This document shows, in pieces, positions 22,684 through 31,956 of a DNA stretch of 64,000 nucleotides (its first letter is position 1; each line of letters starts with the position of its first letter). The translations under genes were made by a program, and so were the position numbers. The DNA comes from Terribacillus sp. FSL K6-0262 (lineage in GTDB: Bacteria > Bacillota > Bacilli > Bacillales > Amphibacillaceae). The notes below the pieces were generated by a model. It did no database searches. It saw only the letters and a list, made by a program, of their open reading frames with translations, and was not told the origin of the DNA. Location of the stretch: contig NZ_CP150277.1 of the NCBI RefSeq assembly GCF_037977385.1, positions 1,086,001 to 1,150,000 of the forward strand, in the 5' to 3' direction.

Positions 22684-23199
22684 TTAAGAAGCAACCGGCT
22701 TCGTCGGTGTTCTCGGTGTATGTTTTGGATAGTGATTTCTTAAATATGGCAGCACCCAGCGGTCGAGTCCATAGCGTCCGGCATTGGCTCCAGCGACTAG
22801 TAAGAAGATCGTAAGCAAGACCATCTGTGCATTTGTGCTCACAGTGCCGCTGAAAAGGAAGGCGAAGTTCATCGTAATACCCATGAGGGCGGCGAAATTG
22901 GTAAAGACTCCGAGAATGAGTGCCATTCCGACAAGGATCTCTCCCCACATGACGAGGAAGCTGAACAGCCCGGCATTCGGCAAGGCCACCTGTTCCAGGA
23001 AGACTGCCCACCAGCCTTGTACCGCCGGATGCTCACCGCCTGCCTGTGCAATCGCTCCTTGCAGGAAGCCGCCAGCATCGAACCCACCGCCCGTCAGTTT
23101 GCCGAGTCCGCCCGTAAGCCACGTATATCCTAGATAAATCCGGATAATCGCCCAAAGCCCTGCAGCCGTTTTGCTGCTTCGAATCCACTTTATGATCAT
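22684..23199 (-). CDS. DoxX-family membrane protein (copy 1)
   Basis: A DoxX-type protein with four membrane helices, starting MIIKWIRSSKTAAG. The block IIRIYLGYTWLTGGLGKLTGG and the GEILVGMALILGVFTNFAALMG helix are family hallmarks. DoxX proteins are linked to thiosulfate:quinone oxidation or redox homeostasis in some bacteria; no partner supports that here. The start at 23199 is chosen by comparison with the paralogue near 31.5 kb; the upstream ATG at 23220 remains possible. The two copies share about half their residues by eye. Confidence 0.85.
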   Translation of the reverse strand: MIIKWIRSSKTAAGLWAIIRIYLGYTWLTGGLGKLTGGGFDAGGFLQGAIAQAGGEHPAVQGWWAVFLEQVALPNAGLFSFLVMWGEILVGMALILGVFTNFAALMGITMNFAFLFSGTVSTNAQMVLLTIFLLVAGANAGRYGLDRWVLPYLRNHYPKHTPRTPTKPVAS

Positions 23200-23421
23200 T
23201 TCCTTCCACACTCCATCCACGAGAATAGTTTGTTAAACATTTCACATATTAGATTGAGAGGGATCAGCGCTTTTCCTTCTACACTTGTAGTATAAACGAG
23301 AAGAATGGATTGCGCTTATTATTATGATCATTTTCACAAATCAGCAATAACTCTCTTACAGTTTTGTGACTTTGGATAAAAAGCGGTTTCAACATTGTAA
23401 ATACGGTGCTGTTATATCCCC

Positions 23422-26028: not shown

Positions 26029-26210
26029 TAGGATACCTCCTGAAAAAATGTATTTGAGATGGAATATATGTTCATTATGTCCAAAGGCTCGGTAAGATGC
26101 ATGGAAGTTGTAAGGTTATATGACTATAATTTTGATTATTCAGAAAAATATCGTCATGCCTGACGAAGAAAATGGATCTGTGACAGCTCCTTTTCTTTCT
26201 TTGCAATAAA

Positions 26211-26245
26211 ATGACCCAAGCTCCCCAGTGTTGGGCTTGGGTCAT
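26211..26245 (-). terminator. Terminator of the SAM-riboswitch unit
   Basis: Stem ATGACCCAAGC / GCTTGGGTCAT with inner CCC/GGG pairs, then TTTTATTG on the minus strand. It lies 27 bases after the 87-codon ORF and shows that transcription probably extends past the M42-like gene. Confidence 0.85.
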
Positions 26246-26272
26246 CCGTATCCTGGCTTTCCTTTGTACAGC

Positions 26273-26536
26273 TTATCGAAACGTATCATGTACCGGATCA
26301 AATATATCCTCTGCTGCCGACCGTACGACAGAGAAATTATCAATATTGAAATGTCCATGAAAAGCATTAGTCGCCTGCTTATCGAATACAGGAGCCTCTT
26401 CTGGTACGTGGATCCCTGCATATATCTGGAACCCGCTTCCTTCCCCTCCCGCGACATCTGTATCACGGACAAATAGGCTGTCGGCTCCTGCTTTGTGTGC
26501 TTTGCTTATGACGATGGCTACAGTATACGGTAACAT
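26273..26536 (-). CDS. Unrecognised ORF after M42-like gene, 87 aa
   Basis: The frame reads MLPYTVAIVISKAHKAGADS through SFVVRSAAEDIFD-like sequence to a stop just before a strong terminator. Codon choice looks like real coding DNA, and the open frame continues upstream across the end of the M42-like gene, but the ATG at 26536 has no ribosome site. It may be a real small gene with a non-standard start, or the 3' end of a gene truncated by rearrangement. I do not recognise the family. Confidence 0.4.
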   Translation of the reverse strand: MLPYTVAIVISKAHKAGADSLFVRDTDVAGGEGSGFQIYAGIHVPEEAPVFDKQATNAFHGHFNIDNFSVVRSAAEDIFDPVHDTFR

Positions 26537-26559
26537 GGACGGGAATGGGAGAGCATTCC

Positions 26560-27525
26560 TTAAAATTGCAGTTCCTTGCTCCGCCAGAGATAGGTCTGGA
26601 TCAGCTGATTGGTATCCTCCAAATCCTTCACCGAAACGACCTGTGTCGTCTGGTCGAGATGCTCGATCGGGATATTCAGGATGCTTACCGGCGTTTTAGT
26701 GGACAGTTTCTTATACCGATGACGGAACAGGAATTCCAGTTGAAATGGGATGTCATGTGCAATGGCCAAATCGACCAGCTGATTTTTCAGGGTCTGATTG
26801 ATTGGTATCGTCTTATCTGCCACTTTGATTGCGACACCGCTTCCCAGTTCGATTGCTCCCCGGCTTTTATGAGCGATTCTTTGCTGGGGGACGGACCCGA
26901 TATAAAAGGCAGCTTCCCCTTCTAGCTGATTGGCAAGATGCTTCTTATTATGGAAAGGAAAGAAGATGATGGTGATGTCCCCTTCCGCTGTATCCCATTG
27001 CTGCAGAAGATTGATTGCAATTGCCGGTGCAATCTTATTATCCAGCCCTTTCCCGACGACGCGGCCGCTCACTTCGTCACCAAGATACAGGAAGTCATCG
27101 AATAATGTCACATGATTGCCTGGTTCCACCCCCATTTCACGTGCATCATGCTCGGTATTGGCCCCGATATCGATGACAGCGGCATGCTGACCTGCTTCAC
27201 CTGCCATGACCACTCCGCACAGCAATCCATTCTTTGTCTCTACCTGGACCGATTGCCCTTGCGCATACGTCAACGAAAAATAATTCGCGTCTGCTACAAG
27301 CGCCCCTGACTCGGTGATCGATGTCACCACATAGATTTCTTCCTTCACCTCTGCCAGCAAGGTGATTTTTGGCGTATACTTTTCTCCATATTTACGGACA
27401 ATAAGATTCCCCCGTCTGTCGAAGTGCATCTCATCCGCAAACGGCGTGATCTTATCGACGATTTGTGAAACAAACGATTGATTATACCCTTTGTACTTGG
27501 ATAATTCCCGGATCAATTCAAACAT
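26560..27525 (-). CDS. Catalytically degenerate M42 peptidase homologue
   Basis: The 321-residue protein aligns along its length with M42 glutamyl aminopeptidases (PDB-type names YtoP, FrvX). The scaffold is kept: IVRKYGEKYTPKITLLAEV, GRVVGKGLDNKIAPAIAINL and VSVKDLEDTNQLIQ. Metal ligands are not. The first-shell His-x-Asp (AHMDE) reads AEVKE at residues 58-62, the Glu-Glu pair reads His-Asn near 192-193, and the final His aligns with Asp. Only Asp162 remains. It is thus probably not a peptidase. It is preceded by a SAM-I riboswitch, so its level should follow S-adenosylmethionine. Confidence 0.8.
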   Translation of the reverse strand: MFELIRELSKYKGYNQSFVSQIVDKITPFADEMHFDRRGNLIVRKYGEKYTPKITLLAEVKEEIYVVTSITESGALVADANYFSLTYAQGQSVQVETKNGLLCGVVMAGEAGQHAAVIDIGANTEHDAREMGVEPGNHVTLFDDFLYLGDEVSGRVVGKGLDNKIAPAIAINLLQQWDTAEGDITIIFFPFHNKKHLANQLEGEAAFYIGSVPQQRIAHKSRGAIELGSGVAIKVADKTIPINQTLKNQLVDLAIAHDIPFQLEFLFRHRYKKLSTKTPVSILNIPIEHLDQTTQVVSVKDLEDTNQLIQTYLWRSKELQF

Positions 27526-27561
27526 GTTGCCTTCCCCTTTCGTATAGGCAGCGGGACAAAT

Positions 27562-27597
27562 ACAAAAGCCTCTCGGACAAGATGCGTCGAGAGGCTT
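27562..27597 (-). terminator. Intrinsic terminator of SAM riboswitch
   Basis: Stem AAGCCTCTCG / CGAGAGGCTT with a 12-nt loop and TTTTGTATTT on the minus strand, between the aptamer and the M42-like gene. It is the expression platform. Confidence 0.9.
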
Positions 27598-27606
27598 CCT
27601 CTATTC

Positions 27607-27711
27607 ATCTTATCTGCCGGTTATGAACCGATGGAATTAGCACAGTGTCTGTCGTCAGACCTGCTGCTGAGGCTTCGCAGGGCCATATCCCTCCACCTCT
27701 CTGGATAAGAA
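27607..27711 (-). promoter_or_regulatory. SAM-I riboswitch (S box) aptamer
   Basis: On the minus strand the element opens CTTATCCAGAGAGGTGGAGG, continues GATATGGCCCTGCGAAGCC and CAGCAGGTCTG, and closes GTGCTAATTCCATC and GATAAG. These are the conserved S-box blocks; P1 pairs CTTATC with GATAAG. High SAM favours the terminator downstream, so the unit should be expressed when SAM or methionine is scarce. Confidence 0.95.
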
Positions 27712-27730
27712 ACATATACAGTTTTCAGAA

Positions 27731-27759
27731 AGTTTATCATTCCATTCAATGATTGTCAA
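27731..27759 (-). promoter_or_regulatory. Sigma-A promoter of SAM-riboswitch unit
   Basis: Minus-strand TTGACA (27754-27759), 17-base spacer, TAAACT (27731-27736), about 20 bases before the aptamer. Confidence 0.8.
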
Positions 27760-29337: not shown

Positions 29338-30804
29338 TCATTCAGGTGCTGTTTCATGTGATGGAGTAGTCAAATCAACTTCCTCCAATTTGTACACCTT
29401 CGTTTTCTTTTTGACTTTATAGATGATCCAGCAAAGCAGGAAGACCGGAATACCGATGTAGGATGCAATCAAGCTGCCCCAATCGATGCCGTCTGCTGTG
29501 AAAGCAGAGAAACTTTGGCCGATTATGACGATGACACATAGCACAAAGGCTAGTATCGGTGCGGCTGGATAGAATTTAGCTGTATATGGCAGATCCTTGA
29601 TATCGTTTCCTTGGGCAAGGTATGCTTTACGGAATCGGTAATGACTGACAGCAATACCGACCCAGACGATGAAGCCTGCCATACCGGATACGTTCAAAAG
29701 CCATGTATACACGACACCATTCCCGAAGAAGGATGTCAGGAAGGCTACACAGCCTACCGCCGTTGTGGCGATAAGCGCGTTTACTGGTACGCCATTTTTA
29801 TTCAGCTTACCAAGGAATGCAGGTGCTTTCCCTTCTTTCGCCAAGTTCCACAGCATCCGTGTGCTCGCGTACATGCCAGAGTTACCGGCAGACAGGACAG
29901 CAGTCAGGATGACCGCGTTCATGACTGATGCTGCAAATGCGATTCCCGCTTTCTCGAACACCAGCGTGAACGGACTCAGACGGACATCATCACTTGCCAG
30001 GCTTTCTGTTGTATAAGGAATCAGCATCCCGATGACGAAGATAGCCAAGATGTAGAACAATAGGATCCGCCAGAAGACGGAGCGAATCGCCTTTGGAATG
30101 GATTTTCTAGGATTATCAGCCTCTCCCGCAGCTGCACCGAGCAATTCCGTTCCCTGGAAGGAAAAACCTGCTGCCATGAACACACCAAGCAAGGCTAGGA
30201 AGCCGCCATTGAATGGAGCATCTTCCACCTTGAAGTTAGAGAAACCAGGTGAATCCCCGCCGAGGATGCCAAAAATCATCAATACACCGACGATGATGAA
30301 GATAATTACGGTCACGACTTTGATCAAAGCGAACCAATACTCTGATTCCCCGAAGCCTTTGACGGAAATATAATTCAATAAGAACATGATGATAAGACTG
30401 ATGGCACTCCAGATCCAAGATGGTGTATCAGGGAACCAGAATCCCATGATCAATGTTACGGCAACGAGCTCGGCTGCGATTGTGATGGCCCAGTTGAACC
30501 AATAGTTCCAGCCGAGTGCAAACCCGAACGATTCATCGACAAAACGAGATCCATATGTGCTGAAGCTTCCGGATACGGGCATGAATGCCGCCATTTCCGC
30601 CAAGCTTGTCATCAAGAAGAATACCATGCAGCCAATCAGCGCATATGCAAGTAAAGCGCCCCCTGGACCTGCCTCACTGATGGCTCCCCCGCTGGCCAGG
30701 AATAATCCTGTACCAATGGTACCGCCAAGGGAAATCATCCCTAGATGACGGGCTTTCAGTTCCCTGCGTAAGCCCTTTTGTTTCGTGTTGTTTCGATTGC
30801 CCAC
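29338..30804 (-). CDS. lysP: Lysine-specific permease (APC family)
   Basis: A 12-helix amino-acid permease of the LysP/GABA-permease branch. RHLGMISLGGTIGTGLFLAS near the N-terminus and the region MPVSGSFSTYGSRFVDESFG are strongly LysP-like. The start is taken as GTG at 30804, because GAGAGGGG lies 8 bases upstream; the GTG at 30831 lacks a site. A lysine riboswitch directly upstream supports lysine as substrate and predicts expression when lysine is low. Confidence 0.93.
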   Translation of the reverse strand: MGNRNNTKQKGLRRELKARHLGMISLGGTIGTGLFLASGGAISEAGPGGALLAYALIGCMVFFLMTSLAEMAAFMPVSGSFSTYGSRFVDESFGFALGWNYWFNWAITIAAELVAVTLIMGFWFPDTPSWIWSAISLIIMFLLNYISVKGFGESEYWFALIKVVTVIIFIIVGVLMIFGILGGDSPGFSNFKVEDAPFNGGFLALLGVFMAAGFSFQGTELLGAAAGEADNPRKSIPKAIRSVFWRILLFYILAIFVIGMLIPYTTESLASDDVRLSPFTLVFEKAGIAFAASVMNAVILTAVLSAGNSGMYASTRMLWNLAKEGKAPAFLGKLNKNGVPVNALIATTAVGCVAFLTSFFGNGVVYTWLLNVSGMAGFIVWVGIAVSHYRFRKAYLAQGNDIKDLPYTAKFYPAAPILAFVLCVIVIIGQSFSAFTADGIDWGSLIASYIGIPVFLLCWIIYKVKKKTKVYKLEEVDLTTPSHETAPE

Positions 30805-30852
30805 TTTCTTTTCCCCTCTCTGTTCTTGCACAGTTGCGCTATAGATACGAAA

Positions 30853-30905: not shown

Positions 30906-31107
30906 CATCATTCTCACAAAGATAGCGCAACACGCCAGCTTTGCTACTGACGTGACAGTCCTGCCCCTATTCGAGTGCAGGCCCAGCCGAAGGATTGGAG
31001 AGCCCATCCGGCTTCGGCAGCTGTTCCTTTCCAGCCTGATCGATGATCTCTCCAGATCTCCCAGTCTGTACTTTTAACAGCCGCAACCTCTACCTCATCA
31101 AATGATG
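30906..31107 (-). promoter_or_regulatory. Lysine riboswitch (L box)
   Basis: On the minus strand the conserved blocks GTAGAGGTTGCGG, AAAAGTACAG, GGAACAGCTGCCGAAGCC and GGCTGGGCCTGCAC appear in order. P1 pairs CATCATT (31101-31107) with AATGATG (30906-30912). Lysine binding should favour the downstream terminator and shut off lysP. An ORF that crosses the element is a chance reading frame. Confidence 0.95.
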
Positions 31108-31222: not shown

Positions 31223-31726
31223 TCATATAAGCTGTCTCTTGCTGTTTCTGGCTCTTTTGTTGTGATCTTTGCTGCGCAGGGAAGGCATGATCCAGTTATC
31301 AATGCCGAACCGGCCAGCATTCGATCCGCCGATCAGCAGCACGATTGCCAGGACGATCATGATCAGATTTTGTGTAAAAGCCCCGCTTAATAGGAAGGAA
31401 ATATTCATCAATATCCCCATCAGAGCTGCAAATCCCGTGAAAGCACCAAGCAAAAGCGCCAATCCGACAAGTGTTTCCCCCCACATGACAAGGAAGCTGA
31501 ATATCCCAGCATTGGGCAGGACGACAGTTTCGAGGAAATCTCCCCACCAGCTCTGGATGACACCCGCCTCCGAACGTGCCAAGGCTCCCTGGACGAATCC
31601 GCTGGCATCAAAGTTTCCGCTCATCAGCTTACCCAAGCCCGCTGACAGGAATGTGTACCCAAGATACAATCTGATCACGAAGAAGACGACTGCTGCTCCC
31701 TTGCTTTGCCGTGATTTGCTGATCAT
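31223..31726 (-). CDS. DoxX-family membrane protein (copy 2)
   Basis: Paralogue of the DoxX protein near 23 kb, starting MISKSRQSKGAAVV. It has the same VIRLYLGYTFLSAGLGKLMSG and FSFLVMWGETLVGLALLLG helices and a basic tail. GGGAGAGGAAGG precedes the ATG at 31726. It is monocistronic between the lysine riboswitch and a Rap-like gene. Function is unknown; four membrane helices are visible. Confidence 0.85.
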   Translation of the reverse strand: MISKSRQSKGAAVVFFVIRLYLGYTFLSAGLGKLMSGNFDASGFVQGALARSEAGVIQSWWGDFLETVVLPNAGIFSFLVMWGETLVGLALLLGAFTGFAALMGILMNISFLLSGAFTQNLIMIVLAIVLLIGGSNAGRFGIDNWIMPSLRSKDHNKRARNSKRQLI

Positions 31727-31956
31727 TATTCCTTCCTCTCCCCTCGCTGCCAAGTTTGTGAACCGATGTGGATCGGCACTCCACAGCTTCAGTATAGGGG
31801 GAAAATTAGAAGATGGAATATTTATACGAGAAATTTAATAGAATAGTAATAATTTTGAAAGATTTTTCCGGTTCACCTAGATTGGCACTGTATATACAGA
31901 TTCCGCTTTTGCGATCCTTTAGAAATAGTAGGAAAGGCCTATCAAATGAAACAGCT

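Follow-up and report, generated by a model that had tools for sequence, protein, structure and literature searches.

We found that in the soil bacterium Terribacillus sp. FSL K6-0262 a SAM-I riboswitch (S-box) lies directly ahead of a gene for an M42-fold protein whose active site, as read from the alignment, is dead; the protein, here called pseudo-M42, is a look-alike of a peptide-cutting enzyme. In three genomes from two other families of the order we observed an S-box followed by an intact M42 gene, oppBCDF and oppA, an arrangement that is new in this analysis. We tentatively prefer the reading, quite possibly correct, that pseudo-M42 is a pseudopeptidase made at low SAM, descended from such an S-box-M42-opp unit and acting as a non-catalytic partner of active M42 paralogues. 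Positions given below are those of the window, i.e. the whole 64-kb stretch of DNA that was analysed.

Loss of the metal and catalytic site

The ORF 27525-26560 on the reverse strand (26560..27525) encodes 321 aa and was matched by Pfam Peptidase_M42 over the profile length with 92.6 bits (cut-off 23.2), which bears out the full-length M42-fold protein called in the first-pass annotation. The loss of four of five metal or catalytic positions reported there was confirmed as a loss and turned out to be larger in extent. Seven positions were scored: H and D of AHMDE, D of LDDR, both E of QEEVG, D of AIDTT and H of RYTHS. Six of them (H, D, E, E, D and H) are gone, and the LDDR Asp, D162, is kept in 13/13 rows of the pseudo-M42 family (12 distinct rows, as P0003 is identical to the G002 copy). 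All seven positions were present in 175 of the 176 other M42 rows (163 distinct), the exception, L084, being shortened by a stop codon. The replacements E59, K61, N193, G210 and D291 are fixed in the family; residue 192 is His in nine rows and Gln in four, so the earlier reading of Glu-Glu as His-Asn is right for the window protein and does not extend to every member of the family. Around 192-193 the register is approximate, as the alignment has a 5-residue gap at that point. Which aligned residue of pseudo-M42 stands for which M42 ligand, or for the general base, is a presumed assignment.

In the alignment the active-site loops QEEVGLRG and GTDGGA are shortened or replaced, and so is the stretch aligned with the flexible chamber loop; in PhTET2 a conserved His of this loop is described as stabilising the substrate (PMC8993905). 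Five metal ligands and the catalytic Glu are described as conserved across the M42 family (PMC3511314); pseudo-M42 does not carry the set of five metal ligands, general-base Glu and HxD Asp that marks an active M42 enzyme. It differs from the M42/TET aminopeptidases PhTET2, TmPep1050 and B. subtilis YsdC and YtoP both in the replacement of six of seven positions and in having these three loops cut back.

The old active site may instead have been rebuilt, either into a binding pocket of its own (for methionine, SAM or a peptide) or into a metal-free catalytic pocket, a reading that we regard as a possibility on the unlikely side. Among ten Terribacillus orthologues 102 of the 321 positions are variable, as against 0/6 in AEVKEE, 0/7 in GKGLDNK, 2/17 at 261-277 (FQLEFLFRHRYKKLSTK) and 2/15 at 283-297 (LNIPIEHLDQTTQVV); the former chamber loop, in contrast to these rebuilt segments, varies at 8/12 positions, and D162, K61 and D291 are identical in 13/13 rows. 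Still, 6/11 positions vary in the segment standing in for QEEVG and 2/7 at 205-211, no known ligand motif was recognised in pseudo-M42, and conservation of the rebuilt segments would also agree with a place in the structural core or at a protein interface.

Leader of the gene and downstream region

The sigma-A promoter, S-box aptamer and terminator that had been proposed ahead of the gene were all found, each on the reverse strand. The promoter (27731..27759; TTGACA-17-TAAACT with an extended -10 TG, 10/12 consensus matches) was the top scorer among six promoter-like sites in a scan of the stretch; since shuffling already leads one to expect 3.5 such sites, the scan by itself is no proof. All ten Terribacillus leaders share TTGACA and the 17-base spacing without change, with a -10 element reading TAAACT in eight and TACACT in two. 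The aptamer (27607..27711) scored 80.8 bits (E 1.9e-17) with Rfam RF00162, for which the gathering score is 44.4 bits, and an aptamer above this cut-off precedes the gene in all ten Terribacillus loci (79.2-81.2 bits).

The intrinsic terminator of the expression platform (27558..27597) forms a hairpin of -19.8 kcal/mol, and its stem and T-rich tail are almost invariant across the ten leaders. This hairpin was absent from the list of a simple terminator scan of the stretch, presumably owing to a bulge in the stem. The minimum-energy fold of the leader alone reproduced neither P1 nor an antiterminator; we infer control of the terminator by the aptamer from the riboswitch class. Two further elements on the same strand were read from the sequence: a ribosome binding site, AAAGGGGAAGG (27530..27540), and a terminator-like hairpin with a T-rich tail (26205..26243), a possible 3′-end of the transcript, which does not appear in the simple scan, where loops of up to 8 are permitted.

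The second ORF (26273..26536, reverse strand), into which the transcript had been suggested to continue, is not supported as a working member of the unit and is not counted in it; it is a remnant of an isochorismatase-family gene. Its Pfam score is 13 bits against a cut-off of 27, and comparison with whole genes in relatives shows that two stretches are missing, one on the start side and one in the middle. An intact 185-codon isochorismatase-family frame is present behind pseudo-M42 in eight of the nine other Terribacillus genomes, at a distance of 142-147 bases in six (L008, L009, L010, L012, L013 and L014) and ∼765 bases in two (L007 and L011); in the ninth, L006, isochorismatase motifs occur in one frame from base 765 on. 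In L008, L009, L010 and L012-L014 a short ORF of ∼19 codons, preceded by a strong ribosome binding site, stands between pseudo-M42 and the isochorismatase gene.

Elsewhere in the window we saw a lysine riboswitch (30915-31100, reverse strand, 112.6 bits) that precedes an amino acid permease gene of the PRK10836 subfamily (29338-30831, reverse strand), and two genes for DoxX/DoxD-like membrane proteins (22684-23220 and 31223-31753, both on the reverse strand) ∼8 kb apart.

S-box regulon and sulfur content

In the genome 17 S-boxes score above the Rfam cut-off, 16 besides that of pseudo-M42; the L045 S-box (38.8 bits) is below the cut-off and was excluded. Behind each S-box one ORF was read, the first or the longest, and named by its best family match, in some cases below the curated cut-off. 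The targets so named are MetK, MetX, MetY, MetI, homoserine dehydrogenase, two MetN, MetQ, an NhaC-type antiporter, SsuE, an NtaA/DmoA monooxygenase, two SfnG-type monooxygenases, a DszC/SfnB-type oxidoreductase, an M20 amidohydrolase and a GldA-like dehydrogenase. Methionine and organosulfur supply is the common theme of the S-box regulon in this genome. Pseudo-M42 resembles the other members in being preceded by an Rfam SAM aptamer and a terminator; it differs from them in that, by family names, all 16 others are predicted active enzymes or parts of transporters, whereas pseudo-M42 is neither. Two S-boxes are divergent and 200 bases apart (G000:C1:716790-717196; L032 and L038), serving MetI and the M20 amidohydrolase.

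Met+Cys make up 0.6-1.25% of residues in the pseudo-M42 family. Values as low as that of the window protein were observed in 2 of 241 genome ORFs and 1 of 65 soluble-like ORFs, the background being ORFs of at least 220 codons collected mechanically from 20 sampled genome stretches, possibly with some non-genes, and in 2 of 175 active M42 rows (L088 and L089) drawn from the 176-row set. The other 16 S-box targets have a median Met+Cys of 1.8% versus 3.2%; the difference is significant against all 241 ORFs (Mann-Whitney p 8e-5) and weaker against the 65 soluble-like ones (p 0.002). Low Met+Cys fits a protein long made during sulfur shortage. In MetY (L041), the 476 residues read up to the locus end contain a single internal Met and no Cys.

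The predicted S-box-M42-opp operon in other families

Among 397 genomes of the order the best match of pseudo-M42 outside the genus was found in G488, where an intact M42 gene has an S-box ahead. An S-box likewise stands before M42 in G544, of the same genus as G488, and in G312, of another family. The M42 proteins of the three genomes keep all seven positions, and each M42 gene is followed by oppB, oppC, oppD, oppF and oppA, identified by family names in G544 and by comparison with G544 in the two others. No second S-box was found within the operon stretches of the three genomes (L117, L118 and L148). We predict that S-box-M42-oppBCDF-oppA is an S-box-controlled operon for import and trimming of oligopeptides.

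An S-box adjoining M42 is rare in general. Genes for a near M42 (E 1e-110) are present in 5/34 genomes of the G488 family and 3/36 of the G312 genus, and in three of these eight genomes, namely G488, G544 and G312, an S-box is beside the gene. With Rfam, an S-box next to M42 was seen at 0/7 non-Terribacillus M42 loci, 0/20 M42 loci and, in further sets, 1/9 (L083) and 1/4 (L113); model R1 gave six matches at 66 M42 loci, three at pseudo-M42 and the others at L083, L113 and L121, these loci overlapping with the Rfam-scanned ones, such that some are the same gene. No S-box was found in wider stretches around six more near M42 genes (L149-L154) and at L155 and L156, or within ∼6-12 kb of the low-sulfur M42s of G207 and G244. 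The S-box signature pattern occurs in 28/43 genomes of the G312 family, in exact form in G312 only and with a one-base difference in 27, where the longest ORF behind it is not M42.

Two side observations concern further riboswitches. In the genus of G312, L186 (1500-1970) and 26 similar loci (L187-L211 and L213) carry a near-identical S-box with no ORF of at least 100 codons within ∼500 bases; in L186 a 70-codon ORF is behind it. An FMN riboswitch (L005, 2587-2734) lies near one of the other M42 genes of the genome that holds the window.

Terribacillus shares with the operon the S-box directly ahead of the M42 gene and differs in lacking both the intact M42 there and the adjoining peptide transporter. 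Neither the 64-kb window nor 7 kb of sequence around seven related copies showed an OppA, OppB or OppC of the operon kind, and comparison with OppD and OppF gave distant ABC ATPases as the sole matches in the window.

Possible joint descent of leader and protein

The occurrence of the S-box-M42-opp operon in other families suggests an evolutionary origin for pseudo-M42. To the S-box tree (n = 55) we admitted 10 pseudo-M42 leaders, 3 M42-opp leaders, 16 other S-boxes of the own genome and 26 others of G488 and G312, one long S-box (L185) being excluded. The 13 M42-linked leaders form one group with moderate support (81/93.5, below the 95/80 mark). Three tabulated pseudo-M42 leaders, out of the ten, have 72-76% identity to the three M42-opp leaders.

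In the tree of 38 protein rows, pseudo-M42 and the three S-box M42s fall on one side of a branch with support 94/98. A warning from the tree program concerned the meeting of two long branches, those of L121 and pseudo-M42; once L121 and three more long rows are removed, the grouping is no longer the best tree, though it is not rejected (p-AU 0.24). Placement of pseudo-M42 with L119/L120 was not rejected (p-AU 0.11). The protein trees and placement tests took in six of the ten pseudo-M42, and as the placement is fragile we do not use it as proof. Separately, descent from an M42 of the L002 type, of the own genome, was tried and rejected (p-AU 0.006).

The S-box might also have been captured locally from another S-box gene, with a protein origin unrelated to the M42-opp operon. 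We consider this unlikely. Such a capture would be compatible with the moderate support of the joint clade, given that S-boxes are short, with the failure of the protein grouping once L121 is left out, and with the L037 S-box of the own genome, which, seen from two M42-opp leaders, is as close (75%) as the pseudo-M42 leaders are; against it, the same three tabulated pseudo-M42 leaders have at most ∼71% identity to any of the other 42 S-boxes. Leader and protein appear to agree in direction, each moderately. That an S-box-controlled M42-oppBCDF-oppA operon gave rise to pseudo-M42, its leader along with its gene, is supported but not proven.

Distribution and selection

One pseudo-M42 copy was detected in each of ten Terribacillus genomes (E 1e-30), always with an S-box ahead, and the ten orthologues all have 321 residues with no change in length. 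Pairwise dN/dS is 0.030-0.061 between the window gene and its nine orthologues and 0.028-0.102 for five further pairs, a range resting on 14 of 45 pairs. Three sets of active M42 paralogues gave 0.019-0.040, with three pairs of saturated dS set aside; the least saturated pseudo-M42 pairs (dS 0.34-0.57) gave 0.06-0.10. Pseudo-M42 is under strong purifying selection, somewhat weaker than that on the enzymes. In the trees the pseudo-M42 stem has ∼6 changes per column and the inner branches of the genus are short, which we read as one episode of change with later conservation.

No pseudo-M42 orthologue outside the genus was found in protein clusters, contigs or whole genomes. Protein searches, restricted to candidates with short words in common with the query, returned three clusters, all named Terribacillus; a contig search returned seven loci, six titled Terribacillus and one (L047) titled Virgibacillus sp. 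7505 but presumably of the genus as well. The whole-genome matches outside the genus, in 8/159 genomes of the family (E 1e-25) and 9/397 of the order (E 1e-33), were normal M42s in which all seven positions are kept, one of them truncated, and a phylum sample of 397 other genomes gave 0 matches at E 1e-33.

That pseudo-M42 is still an aminopeptidase with another metal geometry is very improbable: the fold is intact and one metal-site Asp is kept, but the general-base Glu, both His, two Asp and the second Glu are gone along with the GTDG and QEEVGLRG loops. Simple decay, i.e. a dying M42 gene with its leader kept by chance, would find a parallel in the neighbouring isochorismatase copy decayed in this genome, but it is hardly credible given ten orthologues of equal length, a leader intact in 10/10 and six of seven positions replaced alike, residue 192 apart, and it was rejected by the dN/dS test (0.03-0.10). 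The first-pass annotation had proposed a pseudo-enzyme under S-box control, with a putative sensor, chaperone or inhibitor role in sulfur metabolism; ligands kept in relatives would have meant decay, and an S-box absent from relatives an accidental link. With the ligands lost and the S-box present in all ten genomes of the genus, the proposal of a pseudo-enzyme under S-box control is upheld. As dN/dS stays within 0.028-0.102, pseudo-M42 is not decaying, and values so far below 1, alongside an active site lost throughout the family, mark it as a pseudoenzyme under selection.

Proposed function and significance

Pseudo-M42 probably contributes to sulfur supply in a non-enzymatic way. For the preferred reading, that of a non-catalytic partner, we propose the following course. 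An ancestral S-box-controlled M42-oppBCDF-oppA operon would have imported and trimmed oligopeptides for sulfur supply; in Terribacillus the opp genes would no longer be adjacent and the active site would have been lost along a single long branch. At low SAM the terminator would not form, as in riboswitches of this class, and pseudo-M42 would be made. It would then join one or more active M42 paralogues without taking part in catalysis, and may shift their assembly or their choice of peptides towards methionine recovery, the mechanism that we prefer. In its most specific form, a SAM riboswitch governing a dedicated pseudopeptidase, formerly the catalytic subunit of an S-box peptide-import operon, that joins and retunes active TET aminopeptidases in methionine starvation, the proposal is rather doubtful.

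Candidate partners exist: there are five other M42 genes in the genome, and the four that were fetched have all seven positions. Mixed M42 assemblies are described, namely PhTET2-TET3 heterododecamers (PMC4220976), and in B. subtilis a YtoP-YsdC paralogue pair was modelled, consistent with in-cell crosslinks (PMC10090944). The main objection to the partner model, in our analysis, comes from the formation of M42 dodecamers, described as mediated by the active-site metals (PMC7948507), because of which a metal-free subunit may not enter them.

Pseudopeptidases, among them nicastrin and the transferrin receptor, occur in other metallopeptidase families. Those treated in a review (PMC11266112) have in common with pseudo-M42 that catalysis is lost, and have protein-interaction roles; 'M42' is absent from the main text of that review, as is 'peptidase' from the main text of an S-box regulon survey (PMC3766115). 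Among open-licence PMC papers we found none joining the SAM riboswitch with the M42 family, or joining SAM riboswitch, oligopeptide, aminopeptidase and methionine, and the single paper on Terribacillus and riboswitches was, by title and abstract, on another subject; in this literature we recognised no paper describing the S-box pseudo-M42 or the S-box-M42-opp operon.

The S-box-M42-opp operon makes recovery of methionine from peptides testable as an S-box function. Pseudo-M42 offers a clear-cut natural example in which an enzyme became a non-enzyme with its gene switch retained, the same kind of riboswitch answering to the same starvation signal.
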